From assembly GCA_002477595.1 (NCBI GenBank), contig DLQN01000090.1, positions 20,665-39,368 on the forward strand: DNA of 18,704 bases, given 5' to 3'. Source of the stretch: Roseivirga sp. UBA7431. GTDB lineage: Bacteria > Bacteroidota > Bacteroidia > Cytophagales > Cyclobacteriaceae. The notes below the pieces were generated by a model. That model was given only the letters and a program-made list of their open reading frames with translations. It was not told the DNA's origin and ran no database searches. The position numbers were made by a program, and so were the translations under genes. Numbering within the stretch: the first letter of the stretch is position 1; every line of letters begins with the position of its first letter. This document shows, one piece after another, positions 1-11,959 of this stretch.

Positions 1-767
1 TCATCATCAATCTTGGGATCGTGCGATAGAATGACTGCATAAGTCTCATTATCCAAAGCATAATCTCCTAAAACCTCTTGTGGCCAATTGACATGTAAAT
101 GATCCGGAGCAGTCTTATAGTCGGTCTTTCGGGCAAAAGTGTCGCGTGGATCGATCACTATTGCCTCAAAGTCATAAGTATGTGCCAAATCAATTAGCTC
201 AGCTGTAATGTGCGCAGAACCAATCAAAAGCATTTTGTTCTTAGGTGGAAAGCTATGTATAAAGTAATCCGTGCCTTCATGGTTAATGAGCGTATTGCTA
301 CGTTTATCGTACGTTTCAGAGGCTAACTTCATCAAATCACCTGATATTTTATCTTTGGGATTATAACTCACATGGCTCCCGTCATTTAAATTCGTGATGA
401 TGGCTATTCCTTGATTCGCTGAGATACTTTCGTCAAGCTTTGCCCATAGATCAACTGGATAGAATGGTGAAATATGCACCCATACTTCTCCCCCACAACT
501 AAGCCCAATTTCCCAAGCATCTTCATTGGCGATTCCAAATTTGGTTAACTCGGCCTTACCAGTTTTAAGAACCTTCAATGCTTTCGCTACCACAGCATTC
601 TCGACACATCCGCCACTCACTGAGCCAATCATATCACCTTCCTTGGTCACAATAAGGCATGCACCCGGCTGTCTTGGAGAGCTTCTCCAGGTTTTAATAA
701 CTTTTGCCATCGCGAATTCCCTATTCTCATTGATCAGTTCCTTTATTCGTGGAAGAATGTCTAACAT
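1..767 (-). CDS. xdhC: XdhC/CoxI-family Moco maturation chaperone (3' end beyond window)
   Basis: Reading the minus strand from ATG at 767 gives 255 residues without a stop; the gene runs off the left edge. The N-terminal XdhC_CoxI domain shows SSPRQPGA (about residues 29-36), GSVSGGCVE (48-56) and IGLSCGG (87-93). A Rossmann-like C-terminal part starts near LLIGSAHI (180-187) and continues through VIDPR (204-208) and LSHDPKID. XdhC proteins bind Moco, help its sulfuration and deliver it to xanthine-dehydrogenase-type enzymes, usually together with the cytidylyltransferase MocA, which is also in this window. An in-frame ATG at 812 exists, but it would leave 5 bases to moaA and cover the likely -7 box at 802-809, so 767 is preferred. 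Divergent from moaA. Confidence 0.93.
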   Translation of the reverse strand, partial: MLDILPRIKELINENREFAMAKVIKTWRSSPRQPGACLIVTKEGDMIGSVSGGCVENAVVAKALKVLKTGKAELTKFGIANEDAWEIGLSCGGEVWVHISPFYPVDLWAKLDESISANQGIAIITNLNDGSHVSYNPKDKISGDLMKLASETYDKRSNTLINHEGTDYFIHSFPPKNKMLLIGSAHITAELIDLAHTYDFEAIVIDPRDTFARKTDYKTAPDHLHVNWPQEVLGDYALDNETYAVILSHDPKIDD

Positions 768-784
768 TATCTCTGCTTTGCCAG

Positions 785-792
785 TATATTTG
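785..792 (+). promoter_or_regulatory. Candidate -7 box for moaA
   Basis: TATATTTG matches the Bacteroidota -7 consensus TANNTTTG at every fixed base. It lies 25 bases before the moaA start, so transcription would begin near 797-800 with a short leader. No convincing -33 TTG lies at the usual spacing, which limits confidence. Confidence 0.45.
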
Positions 793-801
793 AATTGATA
801 A

Positions 802-809
802 CGAATATA
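802..809 (-). promoter_or_regulatory. Candidate -7 box for xdhC
   Basis: On the minus strand this reads TATATTCG, one base off TANNTTTG. It lies 34 bases before the xdhC ATG at 767. Together with the box at 785-792 it would make a compact divergent promoter in a 50-base gap. No clear -33 element was found. Confidence 0.35.
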
Positions 810-817
810 CATTCAAT

Positions 818-1881: not shown

Positions 1882-3084
1882 ATGATTTCATACCAAGAAG
1901 CATTAGACATCATCTCAAAGCATCCTTTCAAGGCAAAATCAGGACAACTAAAGCTTGAGGAGATCAATGGACATGTATTGAATGAAGACATTCTTGCCGA
2001 TCGTGACTTCCCTCCTTTCGATCGTGTTACAATGGATGGCATTGCCATCAATCATGCAGCTTATGCGAAGGGACAACGAGATTTTGCGATAGAAAAGACC
2101 ATTGGTGCAGGAATGCCTCAGTCTAGCCTAGAAGATGCTTCTAATTGCGTTCAGATCATGACAGGCGCTATGCTTCCATTGAAGACTGATACCATTATCC
2201 GCTATGAAGACATTACCATAGAAGATAATATCGCCACCATCAATGTTGATTCTGTTAGGCATAAGCAGAATGTCCATTTCAAAGGAGAGGATAAAAAGCA
2301 AGGAGATATAGTCTTATCGAAAGGTACTGTGCTTGGTGCACCAGAGATGATCATTGCAGCCTCCATAGGTAGACCAACATTAGATGTGTTACTTCCTCCG
2401 AAAGCAGCCATCATTACCACTGGAGATGAGCTAGTTGGAATTGATGAATTACCACTTGAACATCAAATAAGAAGATCGAGTAACTATGGTGTGCAAGGCC
2501 TTTTGCAGCAATGGTATATCGATGCTAAGCAATATCATTTGGTAGATAATAAGGAATTGATAGTTAATGAGTTATCATCAATTATCGAAACAGTTGATTT
2601 ATTAATATTAACTGGAGGAGTTTCAAGAGGAAAGTTTGATTTTCTCCCAGAAGTACTAGAAGAACTCGGAGTTGTAAAACACTTCCATAAAGTGAAGCAA
2701 AGACCGGGTAAACCTTTCTGGTTTGGTACCGCTCCGAATGGCACAACAGTGTTTGCATTACCTGGTAATCCGGTATCTACTTTTGCTTGCGCTAATGTAT
2801 ACATCAAGCATTGGTTAAGTCATTCTCTCGGTACAAACCCACAGACGATTTATGTAAAACTCAATCAAGATATTGACTTTCTACCACCGCTTACCTACTT
2901 CTTAGAATGTAGAGCGGAGTTTAATGTATCTGGTGAGTTAGTCGCCACACCATTCAGAGGGCATGGCTCTGGTGACTTTGCCAATATGAGTCATGCCAAT
3001 GGTTTTGTTATTCTACCAGATAACAAAACTGAATTTAAGAAGGGAGAAGTTTATCCGTATATTTTGTATCGAAAGGACTTTTAA
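1882..3084 (+). CDS. moeA: Molybdopterin molybdenumtransferase MoeA
   Basis: Inserts molybdate into adenylated molybdopterin, the last core step of Moco synthesis. The 400 residues carry the family signatures in order: DFPPFDRVTMDGIA (42-55), IMTGAMLP (92-99), ITTGDELVG (178-186), RRSSNYG (197-203) followed by the MoCF domain core LTGGVSRGKFDF (243-254), RPGKP (274-278) and LPGNPVSTF (293-301). The C-terminal domain IV runs from about 320. ATG at 1882 gives the usual N-terminus. The stop TAA and the moaC ATG overlap by one base (TAATG), so the two are probably translationally coupled. The partner MPT adenylyltransferase (MogA/MoaB) is not encoded in the window. Confidence 0.96.
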   Translation: MISYQEALDIISKHPFKAKSGQLKLEEINGHVLNEDILADRDFPPFDRVTMDGIAINHAAYAKGQRDFAIEKTIGAGMPQSSLEDASNCVQIMTGAMLPLKTDTIIRYEDITIEDNIATINVDSVRHKQNVHFKGEDKKQGDIVLSKGTVLGAPEMIIAASIGRPTLDVLLPPKAAIITTGDELVGIDELPLEHQIRRSSNYGVQGLLQQWYIDAKQYHLVDNKELIVNELSSIIETVDLLILTGGVSRGKFDFLPEVLEELGVVKHFHKVKQRPGKPFWFGTAPNGTTVFALPGNPVSTFACANVYIKHWLSHSLGTNPQTIYVKLNQDIDFLPPLTYFLECRAEFNVSGELVATPFRGHGSGDFANMSHANGFVILPDNKTEFKKGEVYPYILYRKDF

Positions 3085-3557
3085 TGACTAAGAAATTCAC
3101 GCATATCGATCAAGAGACGCCTTCAATGGTGGACGTAGGCCATAAAACAGTTACCGAACGTACAGCCATTGCACAGGCAATTGTACAACTATCCGATGAT
3201 ATGAAACCACATATTTCGGATGGAGAGATTAAGACCTTAAAAGGGCCTGTCTTTCAAACAGCCATTATTGCTGGTATTCAAGGAGCTAAAAGAACGTCAG
3301 AATTAATTCCGCTTTGCCACCAATTGAACCTCAATAAAGTTGACATTCAGATTCAAGTTAATGATCAACTTGAAGTAACAATTACTTCATTAGCTAAGTG
3401 TAGTGGCAAAACAGGGGTAGAAATGGAAGCGTTAACTGGCGCTTCTATAGCCGCATTGACCATCTATGATATGTGTAAAGCCTTCTCTCATAATATCGTG
3501 ATCAAAGAGACAAAGCTTATCAAGAAGACTGGCGGTAAATCGGATTATCAAAGCTAG
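3084..3557 (+). CDS. moaC: Cyclic pyranopterin monophosphate synthase MoaC
   Basis: Converts the MoaA product to cyclic pyranopterin monophosphate. The 157-residue length is normal. Characteristic stretches are HIDQETPSMVDVG near the N-terminus, KGPVFQTAIIAGIQGAKRTS (about 53-72), LIPLCHQL with the conserved histidine, GKTGVEMEALTGAS and LTIYDMCKA with the conserved acid, then IKKTGGKSDY at the C-terminus. These cover the known active-site Lys, His, Asp and Glu-Met-Glu segments. It starts inside the moeA stop codon (1-base overlap). Immediately downstream is a large imperfect inverted repeat, so the coupled Moco block may end here or continue weakly into the propeller gene at 3700. Confidence 0.97.
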   Translation: MTKKFTHIDQETPSMVDVGHKTVTERTAIAQAIVQLSDDMKPHISDGEIKTLKGPVFQTAIIAGIQGAKRTSELIPLCHQLNLNKVDIQIQVNDQLEVTITSLAKCSGKTGVEMEALTGASIAALTIYDMCKAFSHNIVIKETKLIKKTGGKSDYQS

Positions 3558-3558
3558 G

Positions 3559-3641
3559 CGTCACTGCACGGACGAAGGACAAAGCAGTATCCACTCTCTA
3601 TTTGGGAGATTGCTTCGGTCGCCATACTCCTCGCAATGACG
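3559..3641. repeat. Imperfect inverted repeat, GCAATGACG family, copy 1
   Basis: Begins one base after the moaC stop. The left end CGTCACTGC pairs with GCAATGACG at the right end. The element is two inverted, diverged arms of about 36 bases around a short centre near 3594-3604. The right arm (GGGAGATTGC to GCAATGACG) is the recognisable unit and recurs at 9410-9463. Role unknown; it could act as a 3' mRNA hairpin. Confidence 0.7.
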
Positions 3642-3656
3642 ACACAAAAAACAAAG

Positions 3657-3699
3657 AATCCCTCTTTGTAAAGAGGGTGGCCGAAGGCCGGGAGATTTT
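3657..3699. repeat. Structured multi-stem repeat abutting a start codon
   Basis: Outer ends AATCCC and GGGAGATT are near-complementary. Inside are CCCTCTTT/AAAGAGGG (3660-3667 with 3670-3677) and GGCC-GAA-GGCC (3679-3689), giving a cloverleaf-like fold. The element ends at 3699 and the next base is the A of the propeller gene's ATG, so it supplies the whole proximal 5' leader. Similar elements are, from memory, dispersed in Bacteroidota genomes. Confidence 0.65.
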
Positions 3700-4758
3700 A
3701 TGAAACTCATCACAGGAACAGATAAAGGACTAATCATTTACCAAAAAGTAAATGGCGCATGGAAGTTATCCGACATCCACTTTATCGGTATGCCTATTGG
3801 TGCTTTTCATCAAGATCAGACTGGCAAATGGTGGGTGGCCATCAACCACAAGCATTGGGGGCCAAAGCTATATACGTCACAGAACCAAGGTGAAACATTC
3901 TCCGAAGTAAACACTCCCCGATTTGGTGACGAAAGCCCTTATTTCTTAAAGTCGATTTGGCGTATTGAAAGCCAAGCGATCGGCCCGATCAATAGACTAT
4001 ACATCGGTACCGAACCTGCCGCACTATTCCTATCTGAGGATCAAGGGAAGTCCTTTAAAGAGCTCTCTGAGCTTACAGCACACGAAAGTAGATCACAATG
4101 GCAAGGCGGAGGCAAAGGAAGCAATAGCCCATTCTTACACACTTTAGTCACCGACCCTAATGACAGCAATGCTTTAATGGTAGGAATTAGCTGTGCGGGA
4201 GTTTTTCAAACACAGGACTTAGGAAATACGTGGAACCCTAGTAACAAAGGACTTAAATCCTTCTTTCTACCCAATTCAGAAATTGAAGTCGGTCACGATC
4301 CCCATATCATTCTGAGACACCCAATGAACTCAAACATTATTTGGCAACAGAATCATTGTGGTATTTACAGATCTGAAGATGGCGGCCTTACTTGGAATGA
4401 CATTTCAGATAAGGAAGGCAAAGCCGTCTACGGCTTCTCAATGGTGATTGATGATGAGGACATTAATACAGCGTGGGTCATTCCAGCACAATCTGATGAC
4501 TTACGATACCCTATCCAAAATAAGCTAGCTGTTTATAAAACAACAGATGCTGGTCAATCTTGGCAGGCACAATCTAATGGTCTTCCGCAAGAAGCAGCAT
4601 TCGATCTTGTCTTGAGGGCAAGTTTTGCTCGAAAGGGTCAGACCATGGCTTTTGGAAGTAATAACGGTAACCTCTACCTATCAGAAGACAGCGGGGGGCA
4701 TTGGCAAGTCCTAAGCCAAAGCTTAAGCTCAGTTAGATCTATAAGTCTTATTCCTTAA
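3700..4758 (+). CDS. Cytosolic BNR/Ycf48-like beta-propeller protein
   Basis: 352 residues with no signal peptide or membrane segment. Six BNR/Asp-box units are visible: SQNQGETF (60-67), SEDQGKSF (112-119), TQDLGNTW (171-178), SEDGGLTW (225-232), TTDAGQSW (281-288) and SEDSGGHW (328-335), spaced as blades of a beta-propeller. Distinctive stretches are GTEPAALF (103-110), GISCAGVF (162-169) and IWQQNHCGIYRS (214-225). These resemble a cytosolic family often labelled exo-alpha-sialidase which, as I recall, lies beside small MoaD/ThiS-type genes in actinobacteria. No sialidase active site is apparent, so that label is doubtful. It follows moaC after 142 bases of repeats and may serve Moco or sulfur-carrier chemistry; function unknown. 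Confidence 0.88.
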   Translation: MKLITGTDKGLIIYQKVNGAWKLSDIHFIGMPIGAFHQDQTGKWWVAINHKHWGPKLYTSQNQGETFSEVNTPRFGDESPYFLKSIWRIESQAIGPINRLYIGTEPAALFLSEDQGKSFKELSELTAHESRSQWQGGGKGSNSPFLHTLVTDPNDSNALMVGISCAGVFQTQDLGNTWNPSNKGLKSFFLPNSEIEVGHDPHIILRHPMNSNIIWQQNHCGIYRSEDGGLTWNDISDKEGKAVYGFSMVIDDEDINTAWVIPAQSDDLRYPIQNKLAVYKTTDAGQSWQAQSNGLPQEAAFDLVLRASFARKGQTMAFGSNNGNLYLSEDSGGHWQVLSQSLSSVRSISLIP

Positions 4759-4821
4759 CGTCACCCTGAACTTGTTTCAGGGTCTGCTTGACTCAGATGC
4801 TGTAACGAGTTCAGCATGACG
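4759..4821. repeat. Inverted repeat, CCTGAAC family, copy 1
   Basis: Starts on the first base after the propeller stop codon. Ends CGTCA..CTGAAC and GTTCAGCATGACG are inverted, and a nested ACCCTGAAC/TTCAGGGT hairpin lies in the left half. The same family is at 10146-10229. It may be a 3' mRNA stabiliser or weak terminator, though no T-run follows. Confidence 0.7.
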
Positions 4822-4889
4822 AACCGTTTCAATTATTCTTACCCTTTCACAGGATTTCACTAATTTAATATTCCGCAAACCTATAGCAT

Positions 4890-7666: not shown

Positions 7667-8113
7667 TTACTTCATCATACTTCCTCGTAATGACAATAGT
7701 AGCTCCTCCCAACTCAGCGTGGCGCACACTTTACGTTCAGGAAATTCTCTGGCAGCGGCAAAGGCTAATAAATCTTCATCACTTGTGAGGGATTCAGGAC
7801 TTTGATCGGACAACTCATTCACCAGCTCATGAAAGAGCTCAATGAACGGCTTAATCTCAACTAAGGTCTTCCCTTCTATCTGCTTCGTCAACACAGCCGT
7901 GGATGCCTTTGAAATAGCACAGCCGAAACCATCGAAAGTCGCTTTTTCAATAACATCATCTACTATTTTGAGAGAGACTGTGTATTGGTCGCCACACATG
8001 GGATTATAGGCTTCTAGCACATGTGTCGCATCCTCAAGTTTGCCTTGATGACTTGTGTCCTTCGCGTTGACAAGGATATGAGATTGATATAGTGCCTTTA
8101 TTCGATCGTTCAT
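7667..8113 (-). CDS. sufU: SufU-type sulfur acceptor / scaffold protein
   Basis: 148 residues of the NifU_N/IscU fold. Ligand positions of SufU are present: C40 and D42 (PMCGDQ), C65 (GFGCAIS) and C130 (RKVCATL). The longer stretch between the second and third Cys (GKTLVEIKPFIELF onward) is the insertion separating SufU from IscU. SufU is zinc-binding and takes persulfide sulfur from SufS, passing it to Fe-S assembly or other acceptors. Its ATG overlaps the sufS stop by 4 bases, so the pair is coupled. Embedding in a Moco run without sufBCD nearby suggests a sulfur-relay job towards molybdopterin rather than general Fe-S assembly, which is inference. Confidence 0.92.
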   Translation of the reverse strand: MNDRIKALYQSHILVNAKDTSHQGKLEDATHVLEAYNPMCGDQYTVSLKIVDDVIEKATFDGFGCAISKASTAVLTKQIEGKTLVEIKPFIELFHELVNELSDQSPESLTSDEDLLAFAAAREFPERKVCATLSWEELLLSLRGSMMK

Positions 8114-9330
8114 GACAGGAAGGCTTGGGTTTCTTTAAGCGCTATAATCAAGGCATCGATATCAGCCTTGGTATTGTAAATAGCAAATGAAATTCGGGCA
8201 GTAGCCATCAAATTTAACCGGTGCATCAATGGCTGGGCGCAATGATGTCCTGCCCTGATACAGATTCCCTTCTCATTCAAAAAAGTACTTAAATCATGCG
8301 CATGAACGCCTTCCATAACAAAGGAAATAACTGGCGCTCTATCGTCAACATCGCCAATCACTTGAATGCCTTCCATTGCTTTAAGTTGTTCCAGCGCATA
8401 ACCCGTTATGGCTTTTGTGTGAGCACTAATTTCGGCATAACCAATCTCGTTGATAAAATCTACAGCCGCACCTAGACCAATCACACCGGCAATATTGGGT
8501 GTGCCAGCCTCATGTTTGTTAGGTGACTGTTGAAAACTGGCTGCCTCAATCGTCACCTCTTTGACTATACCACCTCCATAGCTTAATGGTGCCATTTCTC
8601 TTAATCGTTCACGCTTCCCAAACAGAACACCCACTCCTGTAGGTCCATAGATTTTGTGCCCCGAAAAAACCAAAAAATCACAATGCAAAGCCACAACATC
8701 TATCTCGGAATGAGCTACAGACTGAGCAGCGTCTATAAACACAGGTACCTCAAAACCTTTAGCAGCCTTAATGATTCTCAATAAGTCGTTTTTGATACCC
8801 AATGCGTTTGAAACCCCCGTAACTGCCAATAACTTGACTTTATTAGTTAACAGACTCTCCAAGGCTTCATAGTCTAATTCCCCTGAATCGAGGATGGGAA
8901 TTACCTTAAGCAAAGCGCCCTTCTCGGTACAGATTTGCTGCCAAGGTATCAAGTTAGCGTGATGCTCCATCTCTGAAATGATTACTACATCTCCTGCATT
9001 CAATCTTGGTCTCAAAAATGAGTTGGCCACTTTATTGATCGCGTCTGTAGTTCCAGAAGTGAATACTATTTCATCTTCATGAGCAGCATTCAAAAGTCTT
9101 TGAACCTTGCCTCTAACTTCATTATAATTTTTCGTGGTTTCAGTCGCTGGCCAGTAAGAGGATCTACCTACTGTTCCATATTCCTTTGCATAGAAGTCTG
9201 TGATCCTATCGATTACAGCTAGTGGTTTTTGACAAGTAGCTGCATTGTCTAGGTAAACAAGATCTTGTCCAAGCGGAGTTTTTTGCTTGAATATTGGAAA
9301 CTGTTGCTTTATGGTTTCTGGGTTAAACAT
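8110..9330 (-). CDS. sufS: SufS-type cysteine desulfurase
   Basis: PLP enzyme that removes sulfur from L-cysteine, leaving a protein persulfide. An in-frame TTG at 9354 is possible, but the ATG at 9330 gives 406 residues and places key residues at the same numbers as E. coli SufS: H123 (EMEHHANL), PLP lysine K226 (SGHKIYGP) and persulfide cysteine C364 (RAGHHCAQP). DAAQSVAH (201-208) carries the PLP-contacting Asp and Gln. The short loop around C364 marks group II desulfurases, which need an activator such as SufU, encoded next with a 4-base overlap. It lies downstream of moaD-moaE, so it could feed the MoeB-rhodanese protein. Confidence 0.96.
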   Translation of the reverse strand: MFNPETIKQQFPIFKQKTPLGQDLVYLDNAATCQKPLAVIDRITDFYAKEYGTVGRSSYWPATETTKNYNEVRGKVQRLLNAAHEDEIVFTSGTTDAINKVANSFLRPRLNAGDVVIISEMEHHANLIPWQQICTEKGALLKVIPILDSGELDYEALESLLTNKVKLLAVTGVSNALGIKNDLLRIIKAAKGFEVPVFIDAAQSVAHSEIDVVALHCDFLVFSGHKIYGPTGVGVLFGKRERLREMAPLSYGGGIVKEVTIEAASFQQSPNKHEAGTPNIAGVIGLGAAVDFINEIGYAEISAHTKAITGYALEQLKAMEGIQVIGDVDDRAPVISFVMEGVHAHDLSTFLNEKGICIRAGHHCAQPLMHRLNLMATARISFAIYNTKADIDALIIALKETQAFLS

Positions 9331-9337
9331 GCTTTGC

Positions 9338-9352
9338 GTTCCCGTCGGGAAC
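9338..9352. promoter_or_regulatory. Perfect 15-base palindrome before sufS
   Basis: GTTCCCGTCGGGAAC is a perfect inverted repeat (7-base arms, 1-base centre) ending 7 bases before the sufS ATG, in otherwise AT-rich sequence. It could be an operator or an mRNA hairpin occluding the start region. No regulator is identified, and a dispersed repeat is also possible. Confidence 0.4.
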
Positions 9353-9356
9353 AATT

Positions 9357-9464: not shown

Positions 9465-9881
9465 TTAAGGGTGAGCGGAAACCCACACCTCTCCATCTTC
9501 AAATACTTCTTTCTTCCAAATCGGGACAGTCTCTTTCAAGGTATCTATCGCATATTGACAAGCTTCAAAAGCCTCTTTTCTGTGGGCTGATGAACAAGCA
9601 ATGACAACTGCCTCTTCTTGGATCTCAACTAATCCAGTGCGATGATGAATCACCATTTTATGGAGACTCCACTTATCTGTAGCATGATCAGCAATCTTTT
9701 GCATTTCTTTTAAAGCCATGGGCTCATAGGCTTCAAATTCCAAATGTTTGACCGCTTTCCCTTTTGTTTGATCTCGTACGGTACCTACGAACACAACGAT
9801 GCCTCCAGCACCAGGATAGGTCACTGCCTCAGTGCATGCTTTAGAATTAAGCTTATCAACTGTGATGTATATATCCTGCAT
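9465..9881 (-). CDS. moaE: Molybdopterin synthase catalytic subunit MoaE
   Basis: Large subunit of molybdopterin synthase, which transfers sulfur from two MoaD thiocarboxylates to cyclic pyranopterin monophosphate. From ATG at 9881 it has 138 residues with FVGTVRD (31-37), HHRTGLVEI (79-87), SSAHRKEAF (97-105) and LKETVPIWKKE (115-125), which includes lysines matching E. coli K119 and K126. A GTG at 9893 would add four residues and overlap moaD. The ATG one base after the moaD stop is preferred, with tight coupling of the two subunits. Followed by a repeat and then sufS. Confidence 0.96.
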   Translation of the reverse strand: MQDIYITVDKLNSKACTEAVTYPGAGGIVVFVGTVRDQTKGKAVKHLEFEAYEPMALKEMQKIADHATDKWSLHKMVIHHRTGLVEIQEEAVVIACSSAHRKEAFEACQYAIDTLKETVPIWKKEVFEDGEVWVSAHP

Positions 9882-9882
9882 A

Positions 9883-10125
9883 TCAGCCGCCACTTACAGG
9901 TGGAATTAGCACTAGCTCGTCACCGGATTTTAATTCATAACTATCTTCGACATAATCTGCGTTTACCGCAAACCTTAAGGATGAGAGCTTAGAGAACTCT
10001 GGATAGATACTGGAGAGTTGTTCTCTAACCGCACTAATGGAATTACCATTATCTAAATCCATGGTCAGTTCCTTTCCTTTGATAATGTCTTTGGCGATAC
10101 CAAATGCTACAATCCGTATTTTCAT
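9883..10125 (-). CDS. moaD: Molybdopterin synthase sulfur carrier MoaD
   Basis: 80-residue ubiquitin-like sulfur carrier ending VSGG. The C-terminal glycine is adenylated by MoeB and converted to a thiocarboxylate. Other family marks are the N-terminal strand MKIRIVAFG, the central AVNADYVED and the ELVLIPPVSGG tail (about 70-80). ATG at 10125; the stop is one base before the moaE ATG. The 109-base gap to moeB upstream holds a CCTGAAC-family repeat. Confidence 0.95.
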   Translation of the reverse strand: MKIRIVAFGIAKDIIKGKELTMDLDNGNSISAVREQLSSIYPEFSKLSSLRFAVNADYVEDSYELKSGDELVLIPPVSGG

Positions 10126-10234: not shown

Positions 10235-11368
10235 TTAATAAGTATCCATATTATGGTCTATTTCTTTCTGCCAAGCCAAGATACCACCTTTCAAATTGAT
10301 CAGGTTGTCAAAACCTTCTTTTTTGAGAAGGTCAATAGCGTTTTGACTTCTTCCTCCTGACTTACACATTACTACCACGGGCCGATCGTTAGGGATTTCA
10401 AGTACTCTGTCTACCACTTGATTCAAAGGAATCAGCTGGCCTCCAATATTGGCAATATCATATTCGTAGTCCTCCCTGACATCAAGCAAATGAATAGAGT
10501 CAGCTTTCTTAAGCTCTTGTAGTTCTTGAACCGTAATTTCATTTTGAATTGCCTCTACAAGATTGCTGCAGAAAGCCTCGTAATCAATCAGCTCGGTGAG
10601 AGTTGGGTTGACACCTGACAATGGGTTATCAGGGTTGGCTTGAATGTTTAGGGTTCGGGTAGAGACATCTTGTGCATCGTACAAAAATAGTTTGCCAGAT
10701 AGTGTTGTACCAATCCCCGTAATAATCTTAATGACTTCGTTGGCTTGCATAGCACCAATAATACCAGGCAAGACGCCCAATACTCCACCCTCACTGCAAC
10801 TCGGTACCATATCTGGTGGTGGTGGTGAAGGAAACAAATCACGGTAATTAGGTCCTCTTAGACCATTCTCATCTGCGTAATTGAAAACAGAGACTTGACC
10901 TTCGAAACGAAAGATTGCCCCATAGACCAGTGGCTTTTCTAAGAAGTAGCAAGCATCATTCACCAAGTACCGAGTGGGTAAATTATCTGAGCCATCTACG
11001 ACTAAATCATATGCTCCAATGATCTCCATGGCATTCTGAGCAGTAATCGGCTCTTCATAAATCTGAAGCCTAACGTTAGGATTCAATTCCGTTAACTTGT
11101 CTTTAGCCACCTGCGCCTTGTTTTTTCCAACTGATTGTTCATTGAACAACACTTGTCGGTGAAGATTTGAGAGACTTACTTCATCAAAATCCATGATACC
11201 GATATGGCCAACACCGGCAGCCGCTAAGTATAATAAGTTTGGTGCACCTAGCCCTCCCGCGCCTATCACTAAGACGGAAGCTGCCTTCAGCTTCTGTTGT
11301 CCATCAATACCAAAATCAGGTAATATGATTTGACGGTTATACCGGATGAGTTCTTCCTTGCTAAGCAT
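10235..11368 (-). CDS. moeB: MoeB-rhodanese fusion (MoaD adenylyltransferase/sulfurtransferase)
   Basis: 377 residues. Residues 1-245 are a ThiF/MoeB adenylating domain with the ATP loop GAGGLGAP (36-43), DFDEVSLSNLHRQ (60-72) and catalytic C191 in PSCSEGGVLG. Residues about 275-370 are a rhodanese domain with persulfide loop CKSGGRS starting at C335. This layout is like eukaryotic MOCS3: the protein adenylates the MoaD C-terminus and transfers sulfur from C335. The zinc-binding CxxC pairs of E. coli MoeB are absent: NYRDLFP (174-180) stands where the first CxxC would be and no second pair is seen. It starts directly after the mocA stop with no spacer. Often labelled molybdopterin-synthase adenylyltransferase. 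Confidence 0.95.
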   Translation of the reverse strand: MLSKEELIRYNRQIILPDFGIDGQQKLKAASVLVIGAGGLGAPNLLYLAAAGVGHIGIMDFDEVSLSNLHRQVLFNEQSVGKNKAQVAKDKLTELNPNVRLQIYEEPITAQNAMEIIGAYDLVVDGSDNLPTRYLVNDACYFLEKPLVYGAIFRFEGQVSVFNYADENGLRGPNYRDLFPSPPPPDMVPSCSEGGVLGVLPGIIGAMQANEVIKIITGIGTTLSGKLFLYDAQDVSTRTLNIQANPDNPLSGVNPTLTELIDYEAFCSNLVEAIQNEITVQELQELKKADSIHLLDVREDYEYDIANIGGQLIPLNQVVDRVLEIPNDRPVVVMCKSGGRSQNAIDLLKKEGFDNLINLKGGILAWQKEIDHNMDTY

Positions 11369-11959
11369 TTAATCGAATAATTCTATATCGCCTAAACTAT
11401 CGATATCCTTGATGAAACGATCATTGTCAACATTCAGGTTCAATACATTTTCTTGGTTGTCGCGAACGATCTGAGCGCAACCATTAGTGTCTTTATGATT
11501 CGACATATCGTCAAAATAGTTTTTACCAAAGATCACTGGGTTAGCCCTTTTCTGATCATACCAAGGCACAAGTATTCGCTGAGTTCCGCCTTCTGACAGA
11601 AAACTCTCTATCAAAAAATCATAATCTGCCGTATTTAACCAAGGCATATCGCCAAGACATATCATTATGGCATCACAAGGTTGTGATCTGCTTAATCCTG
11701 ATTGAATGGAAGAAGTCATACCCAACTCAAAATTATCATTATGTGCAAATTGGTCGTTCAGCCTTAAACTTAGGCTTGACATCACTTGATCCGCATCTCT
11801 ACCGGTAACAACTGTAATCTGATTAATCTTAGACTTACTCAATCCCCTATAGACTGACTGAATAACAGCTCCTCCATGAAAAGGAAGCAACAGTTTATTG
11901 GGGCCGTTCATTCTAGACGACAAACCCGCAGCTAAAAGAATTGCATTGACTTTTGGCAT
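11369..11959 (-). CDS. mocA: MocA-like molybdenum cofactor nucleotidyltransferase
   Basis: 196-residue NTP-transferase (MobA-like fold) with LAAGLSSRM (9-17) and K22 for nucleotide binding, GMTSSIQSG (80-88) and LGDMP (102-106), whose Asp binds magnesium. The overall pattern (LAAGxSSRM, GMxSSxxxG, LGDxP) resembles MocA (CTP to molybdopterin cytosine dinucleotide) more than MobA (GTP). The XdhC gene at 1-767 fits this, since MocA and XdhC serve the same enzyme family. The nucleotide preference is inferred. ATG at 11959; the moeB ATG follows its stop immediately. A terminator 26 bases upstream isolates it from the SnoaL-like gene. Confidence 0.85.
   Translation of the reverse strand: MPKVNAILLAAGLSSRMNGPNKLLLPFHGGAVIQSVYRGLSKSKINQITVVTGRDADQVMSSLSLRLNDQFAHNDNFELGMTSSIQSGLSRSQPCDAIMICLGDMPWLNTADYDFLIESFLSEGGTQRILVPWYDQKRANPVIFGKNYFDDMSNHKDTNGCAQIVRDNQENVLNLNVDNDRFIKDIDSLGDIELFD

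Follow-up and report, generated by a model that had tools for sequence, protein, structure and literature searches.

Small ubiquitin-fold proteins can be encoded beside the client they serve, as in the pairs MoaD-MoaE and ThiS-ThiG. The known clients of two further proteins of this kind, CysO and 4n6e, are CysM and a thiosugar synthase, respectively. Among Asp-box beta-propellers, 3b7f has 7 blades and 5 Asp boxes, and its function is listed as not known in PMC2716378. For molybdenum hydroxylases, the molybdenum cofactor (Moco) bound to XdhC is described as receiving its sulfur from a cysteine desulfurase (PMC2997495), and PMC4240915 gives the sulfur source of carbon monoxide (CO) dehydrogenase as not known. 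Here we analyse an 18,704-nucleotide stretch from the draft genome of Roseivirga sp. UBA7431 (80% complete; contig DLQN01000090.1, G000:C47:20665-39368 in our numbering), hereafter the window, which encodes a single-domain Asp-box propeller behind moaC. A sequence-only reading of the window had rightly described a 352-residue protein with six Asp boxes following moaC on the same strand; the span it gave for the propeller, 3084..4758, holds two genes, moaC and the propeller itself (Table 1). Comparison of genomes makes it highly probable that this propeller and a CysO-like ubiquitin-fold protein form a pair, a two-protein module that is so far undescribed and may help assemble molybdenum enzymes. 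A literature search, with most subscription papers and all preprints outside its scope, found no publication on the propeller and its partner.

Co-occurrence of the propeller and a CysO-like protein

Propeller genes were found in at least 8 of 296 Bacteroidota genomes, and the four best partner scores all fell in propeller-bearing genomes. Six of these 8 carry an adjacent ThiS-like gene ending in Gly-Gly; in the window's genome the partner is unlinked. Within the window's family at least 68 of 295 genomes (27 of 84 genera) hold a propeller, at a total of at least 94 loci. At a partner score of at least 80 bits, a cut-off picked after the scores were seen, the partner is present in 63 of the 68 propeller-positive genomes vs 0 of the 227 propeller-negative ones (Fisher p 7e-59, relatedness ignored). 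The sequence-only reading had named a count of such genes against background as the check on its proposal, and in this one family the enrichment was found. A cut-off of 55 bits gives 67 genomes with both genes, 1 with the propeller only, 23 with a partner-type gene only and 204 with neither; the 23 are ThiS-group proteins of lower score (55.7 to 74.8 bits), some of which sit in frames of about 470-510 amino acids (aa). At most 6 propeller candidates were scored per genome in both searches, so 8/296 and 68/295 are minimum counts, and a propeller may have been missed in some of the 227 negative genomes; rescoring with up to 34 candidates changed no family genome common to both samples. The partner lies adjacent to the propeller on the same strand at 62 of the 94 loci, upstream at 59 and downstream at 3, and the spacing between the two profile matches ranges from -1 to 259 base pairs (bp), with a median of 27.

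Frames of about 470-540 aa at four loci (L118, L046, L041 and L057) begin with a ThiS-like domain, and by reading their ends resemble an activating enzyme (E1) with rhodanese; they are perhaps ThiS-E1 fusions. A cysteine-synthase-like frame, likewise recognised by reading, lies near the ThiS-opened frame in L046 and L057.

Phyla other than Bacteroidota were judged from plasmid records only and not from genome counts. On plasmids of Mitsuaria, Pseudomonas and Burkholderia stagnalis the upstream neighbour of the propeller homologue is annotated as a MoaD/ThiS family protein. When 72,556 plasmid records were searched by tblastn with the small protein from Pseudomonas, 10 beta/gamma-proteobacterial records matched, and in 10 of 10 the propeller gene stands directly downstream of the partner. 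The two genes are also adjacent in Cupriavidus metallidurans CH34 (L016). Among three actinobacterial plasmid records, those of Nonomuraea and Arthrobacter show a ThiS-like gene downstream of the propeller. VOC/glyoxalase-type, YciI/YCII and 3-dmu genes adjoin the pair on the Pseudomonas plasmid and at two diverged Bacteroidota loci (L022, L031, L028); a third such neighbour guess, L034, has no Pfam match.

Some genomes and records speak against a strict partnership. Five of the 68 propeller-positive family genomes (G384, G396, G470, G491, G511) have no partner at 80 bits, G396 carrying an adjacent one at 74.6 bits, under the cut-off. No adjacent partner was seen in G120, one of the 8 propeller-bearing Bacteroidota genomes, in one Streptomyces plasmid record, or in three alphaproteobacterial plasmid records. 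The association with MoaD/ThiS-type genes that had been proposed for actinobacteria and, conditionally, for other phyla is real and crosses phyla: co-occurrence is near-perfect in one Bacteroidota family, and adjacency is seen in all the beta/gamma-proteobacterial records with a partner match and in 2/3 of the actinobacterial records, but not in the three alphaproteobacterial ones.

The partner in the window's genome (G000:C99:7684-7953; 90 aa, C-terminus QAISGG) is encoded on another contig than the propeller. Judged from sequence, the propeller has a dedicated CysO-like partner of about 90 aa, separate from the MoaD of Moco synthesis. Among solved structures the partner profile comes closest to 4n6e_B (E 6.4e-17) and CysO (3dwg_C, E 1e-16); the partner has no match to the MoaD model TIGR01682 at E<=1e-5, and only the SAMP1 and MoaD_arch models match, both below cut-off. 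The window's own MoaD was considered for the role and ruled out by alignment, by these models and by the likely partner turning up elsewhere in the genome. The partnership with the window's MoaD and MoeB that the initial reading suggests is accordingly replaced by one with the unlinked protein.

In a tree of 67 Bacteroidota propeller rows, out of about 104 known loci, the window gene falls into clade A, which has 42 rows and a support of 98/96; clade B comprises 20 rows with weak support (84/72), and five further rows fall outside both. All 19 genomes of the genus that were searched have propeller and partner. A clade A paralogue is present in 18 of the 19, moaC in 18 and an xdhC match in 18, and because the exception is the same genome (G296) each time, the placement of the propeller behind Moco genes exceeds chance. 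In most species of the genus the clade A gene stands behind moaA-moeA-moaC, and in G299, G301 and G310 the partner gene separates moaC from the propeller, a place taken up in the window by a gap of 142 bp. No remnant of a partner was found in this gap (tblastn of two partner proteins over the window, E<=10).

In the window's genome the partner is flanked by a cupin gene on one side and a GH1-type glucosidase gene on the other, with about 100 bp and no propeller gene between it and the glucosidase. This locus looks like its clade B counterpart in G309 and G296 minus the propeller gene, and the clade A propeller is present elsewhere in the genome. Since the genus keeps one partner gene per genome, wherever located (two in G298), we infer that the unlinked copy serves the window's clade A propeller; the partner tree is too short to match unlinked copies to clades, and the assignment is by synteny. 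G296, of the same genus (99% complete, 4 contigs), gives no moaC, xdhC or PF00899 match; it apparently lost Moco synthesis and offers a natural experiment for what depends on Moco.

The propeller could itself be a component of Moco synthesis that works with the window's MoaD, MoaE and MoeB. The position of clade A genes behind moaA-moeA-moaC in most species of the genus fits this idea, as does G296, which is without moaC and the clade A gene alike. We nevertheless hold it to be improbable, given that the propeller occurs in only 68/295 family genomes, that moaC is present in 22 of 33 propeller-negative relatives, and that the co-occurring small protein is CysO-like and at 80 bits absent from all 227 propeller-negative genomes.

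Fold, family and conserved residues of the propeller

The window propeller carries six Asp-box-like repeats, at residues 60, 112, 171, 225, 281 and 328. The three motifs pointed out by the sequence-only reading (GTEPAALF, IxCAGVF and IWQQNHCG) are all present, as GTEPAALF from residue 103, ISCAGVF from 163 and IWQQNHCG from 214; residues 165, 219 and 220 are C, H and C. No leader is visible in the first residues by reading alone. The closest named relatives come from Roseivirga, and the sole strong match to solved structures is 3b7f (phmmer E 1.2e-57; next 2.5e-6). An AlphaFold2 (AF2) model from a 97-row alignment has a mean predicted local distance difference test (pLDDT) score of 95.5, and in Foldseek it matches 3b7f with a template modelling (TM) score of 0.91 at 31% identity. 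The folds ranking next are mostly tandem-propeller GH74 xyloglucanases at 11-16% identity. Over its full length the protein is similar in sequence and fold to 3b7f-type Asp-box propellers and consists of a single propeller. Assignment as a GH74 xyloglucanase was rejected: two tandem 7-bladed propellers are required there, and the 352 aa match a one-propeller chain over the whole length.

Invariant positions of the 97-row alignment include K9, H52, K56, W134, H147, S164, D200, H202, Q217, H219, R269 and R306. A more diverse set of 75 rows keeps H202, Q217 and H219 throughout; H147 and S164 occur in 74 of its rows, with the remaining one masked, R306 in 74 with a gap in the remaining one, R269 in 71 and D200 in 65. 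By their invariance H147, S164, H202, Q217, H219 and R306 are candidate docking residues. C165, H219 and C220 had been singled out earlier as conserved candidate functional residues. This applies to H219, which is invariant in both sets, and not to the cysteines: position 165 is C in 84/97 and 60/75 rows and position 220 in 86/97 and 62/75, a result that tells against the sulfur-based explanation preferred below. Because C165 and C220 are not conserved family-wide, a general Cys-based mechanism was ruled out.

The family is large, with 7,999 of 8,000 candidates scored by a non-Bacteroidota profile reaching E <= 1e-20. A single-protein pattern scan returned 0 loci in viral contigs and 2 in genome contigs, one of which (L010) is a different, 1060-aa protein. 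Many among 120 listed family matches are named sialidase or exo-alpha-sialidase, and members elsewhere are annotated as glycosyl hydrolase or exo-alpha-sialidase. Taken at their word, these annotations would make the propeller a cytosolic sialidase or another glycoside hydrolase, and the Asp boxes are in line with them; so is R269 (97/97 and 71/75 rows), which together with the nearly invariant P271 two residues on recalls the FRIP motif of sialidases. Against this, none of the propeller's five Pfam matches is to a sialidase model, BNR_2 gave no match at E<=0.01, and the nearest fold is 3b7f, followed by GH74 proteins at the low identities given above. A glycosidase is therefore very hard to credit, and the sialidase label, which the sequence-only reading expected to be wrong if its association held, has no support in these matches. 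A term search (sialidase, propeller, BNR) of the available parts of PMC1779556 and PMC1949818 gave no relevant passage.

Molybdenum hydroxylase loci and the case for sulfur

Each of the 42 sampled clade A loci lies no more than 6 kb from a Moco, xdhC, cox or sufS/sufU gene, 4 of the loci being linked in this way to sufS/sufU only. Such genes lie within 6 kb at 4 of 20 clade B loci and at 0 of 13 rows of a clade B subclade (12 genus genomes plus G315) when Moco, xdhC, cox and suf are counted. Neighbours took their names from BLAST matches (E<=1e-6) with reference proteins, with most other neighbours left unnamed, so paralogues may be among those named; the 20 fetched regions were chosen, mostly as non-adjacent, E1-less or E1-linked cases, and are not a random sample.

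Genes of the cox type occur within 6 kb of 9 of the 67 Bacteroidota rows. In G437 the run reads MerC-like gene, partner, propeller, coxM, coxS, coxL, coxG, coxD-like AAA ATPase gene, coxE and xdhC, where MerC is a label given here to a protein without Pfam match. The CoxL of G437 scores 1216.8 bits with TIGR02416, above the cut-off of 991, and contains AYRCSFR, the motif of form I CO dehydrogenase. By the pattern used, eight inspected CoxL-sized proteins comprise four with AYRCSFR, one with AYRGAGR and three with neither; CoxL-sized proteins with AYRCSFR in the window's family were seen at L158, L193, L197 and L210. The run of G298 starts with xdhC, a MerC-like gene, the partner, coxM-S and four more genes, the first of them CoxL-sized with AYRCSFR, and goes on with xdhC, moaA, moeA, moaC and propeller. 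The window corresponds to its right-hand part without the cox genes. By gene order clade A belongs with the molybdenum hydroxylase maturation machinery, and a role of clade A in that maturation is fairly likely. The clade A propeller would go with the maturation of enzymes of the xanthine dehydrogenase or CO dehydrogenase type, together with XdhC, the MocA-like protein and SufS/SufU.

Several observations are consistent with sulfur as the cargo. A Gly-Gly C-terminus is found in 38 of 38 partners of the tree set (G296 included) and in 15 of 16 of a smaller set, the diverged downstream type included. The genes sufS and sufU are repeatedly found around clade A loci, and E1 genes around some of these; in G324 an E1 gene stands directly upstream of partner and propeller. 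Sulfur transfer by the pair is plausible but unproven, and we favour a sulfur relay as its chemistry only with reserve. In such a relay the window gene would encode the propeller half and the C99 CysO-like ubiquitin-fold protein would be the other half. In the window's lineage SufS and the MoeZ-type E1 would charge the partner's tail with sulfur, the partner would dock this C-terminal tail at the candidate residues H147, S164, H202, Q217, H219 and R306, and the propeller would hand the sulfur to a molybdenum site handled by XdhC or CoxD/CoxE. Our best explanation as a whole, a propeller/ubiquitin-like complex that serves molybdenum hydroxylase maturation and passes sulfur to the molybdenum site, is accordingly tentative.

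This explanation has to be weighed against a number of contrary findings. None of 81 full-length (>=90 aa) relatives of the Nonomuraea partner (86 relatives in total) ends in Gly-Gly, and many of them stop at VLPALA or similar, right at the place of the tail; the count comes from a single query (L012) and hence samples one clade. G296, at 99% completeness, has no PF00899, moaC or xdhC match and keeps a clade B propeller with a Gly-Gly-ended partner; in itself the module thus seems able to do without Moco and E1. PF00899, the E1 family, scores above cut-off in 71 of the 77 genomes with a propeller. Of the six others, G296 among them, G389, G446, G562 and G602 (60-87% complete) keep the pair as well, and G384 (96%) is without partner match. 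No neighbour of the pair within 5 kb in Pseudomonas, Burkholderia and Mitsuaria is annotated as a molybdenum gene, and the five Bacteroidota rows that fall in neither clade have no molybdenum or suf gene within 6 kb. The earlier suggestion that the family works with sulfur carriers is weakened by the Gly-Gly-less clade and by the genome that has the pair without an E1 match.

Among the relatives of the Nonomuraea partner (P0241-P0326, from Nonomuraea, Streptosporangium and relatives) several are named molybdopterin synthase sulfur carrier subunit by their sources, a name that is probably wrong given the absence of the tail from all 81 full-length proteins. An AF2 model of a Gly-Gly-less partner has a moderate mean pLDDT of 80.5, and its best fold match is CysO, a weak one (E 0.16).

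The alternative is a non-covalent complex in which the ubiquitin-fold protein acts as a structural or ligand-presenting subunit without sulfur, clade A being a chaperone or scaffold for molybdenum hydroxylases and other clients being served elsewhere. It would account for the Nonomuraea-type partners, which lack the Gly-Gly end and yet conserve much of the protein, for the pair kept in G296 without a PF00899 match, and for the 13-row clade B subclade. It fits less well with a Gly-Gly tail kept in both partner sets, G296 again included, and with the desulfurase and E1 genes around clade A loci, and a Gly-Gly-less partner beside a propeller was seen only once, at L012. We rate this alternative as doubtful but to be taken seriously. 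A more far-reaching version of the sulfur explanation seems unlikely to us: an obligate ubiquitin-fold/Asp-box propeller complex that was recruited several times, that in Bacteroidota provides the missing sulfur-insertion step of molybdenum hydroxylases, form I CO dehydrogenase included, and that in one actinobacterial clade works without Gly-Gly tail and so would require neither conjugation nor sulfur carriage.

Through this co-occurrence a large family, many of whose members are named as sialidases, acquires a partner and a biochemical context. If clade A does act in maturation, the pair is a candidate for the sulfur source of the Mo-S-Cu site of CO dehydrogenase, a source given as not known in PMC4240915. 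In the Gly-Gly-less clade a ubiquitin-like protein would have been retained for a use other than sulfur carriage or conjugation.

The window and its closest described systems

Gene order in the window is xdhC (minus strand), moaA, moeA, moaC, propeller and a large BNR protein, followed on the minus strand by sufU, sufS, moaE, moaD, E1 and the mocA-like gene (Table 1). The proximity of moaD, moaE and moeB noted from the sequence is confirmed, on the opposite strand at 5-7 kb; the xdhC-like gene and sufS/sufU add to what that reading had named. The 868-aa BNR protein scores 124 bits with the propeller model vs 508 for the window's propeller, and judging by this first of the two, the large BNR/sortilin proteins look like a different family. 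The intergenic stretches 3558-3699 and 4759-4889 flank the propeller gene with short palindromes read by eye, e.g. CCCTGAAC...GTTTCAGGG; they may be dispersed repeats of the window's genome.

Table 1. Features of the window, in window positions
Feature	Position	Strand	Evidence or remark
xdhC/coxI-like maturation factor	3..812	-	runs off left window edge; PF02625 at G000:C47:21198-21398 = window 534-734
moaA	818..1807	+	TIGR02666 above cut-off
moeA	1882..3084	+	
moaC	3084..3557	+	PF01967, 170 bits
moaC-propeller gap	3558..3699	.	142 bp
Asp-box beta-propeller, single domain, 352 aa/codons, clade A, 3b7f family	3700..4758	+	3b7f_A E 1.2e-57, AF2 model
large BNR/sortilin-type protein, 868 aa	4890-7496		
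sufU-type sulfur transfer protein	7667..8113	-	TIGR01994 above cut-off
sufS-type cysteine desulfurase	8110..9354	-	TIGR01979 above cut-off
moaE	9465..9893	-	
moaD of Moco synthesis	9883..10125	-	TIGR01682 best model, 54.4 bits vs cut-off 66 (below)
MoeB/MoeZ-type E1 with rhodanese domain	10235..11368	-	sole PF00899 match found in the 80% complete genome
mocA-like nucleotidyltransferase	11369..11959	-	TIGR03310 best model, below cut-off
large BNR/sortilin-type protein, 954 aa	15785-18649		

Compared with described systems, the window propeller belongs to the same family as 3b7f, which is Reut_B4987 of Ralstonia eutropha JMP134, and has 6 Asp boxes where 3b7f has 5 on its 7 blades. With regard to CO dehydrogenase, G437 likewise has coxM-S-L-G-D-E plus xdhC, as in the CoxD/E/F/G/I set of Oligotropha carboxidovorans, with the pair in front; the gene lists in the available parts of PMC4240915 and PMC2997495 name no propeller or ubiquitin-like gene. 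The known clients of the two solved proteins nearest to the partner, CysO (3dwg_C) and 4n6e_B of the ThiS/MoaD family, are not propellers, and part of the partner family has lost the C-terminal tail. In contrast to MoaD-MoaE and ThiS-ThiG, the client encoded beside the small ubiquitin-fold protein is here an Asp-box propeller, and the small protein itself has no TIGR01682 match.

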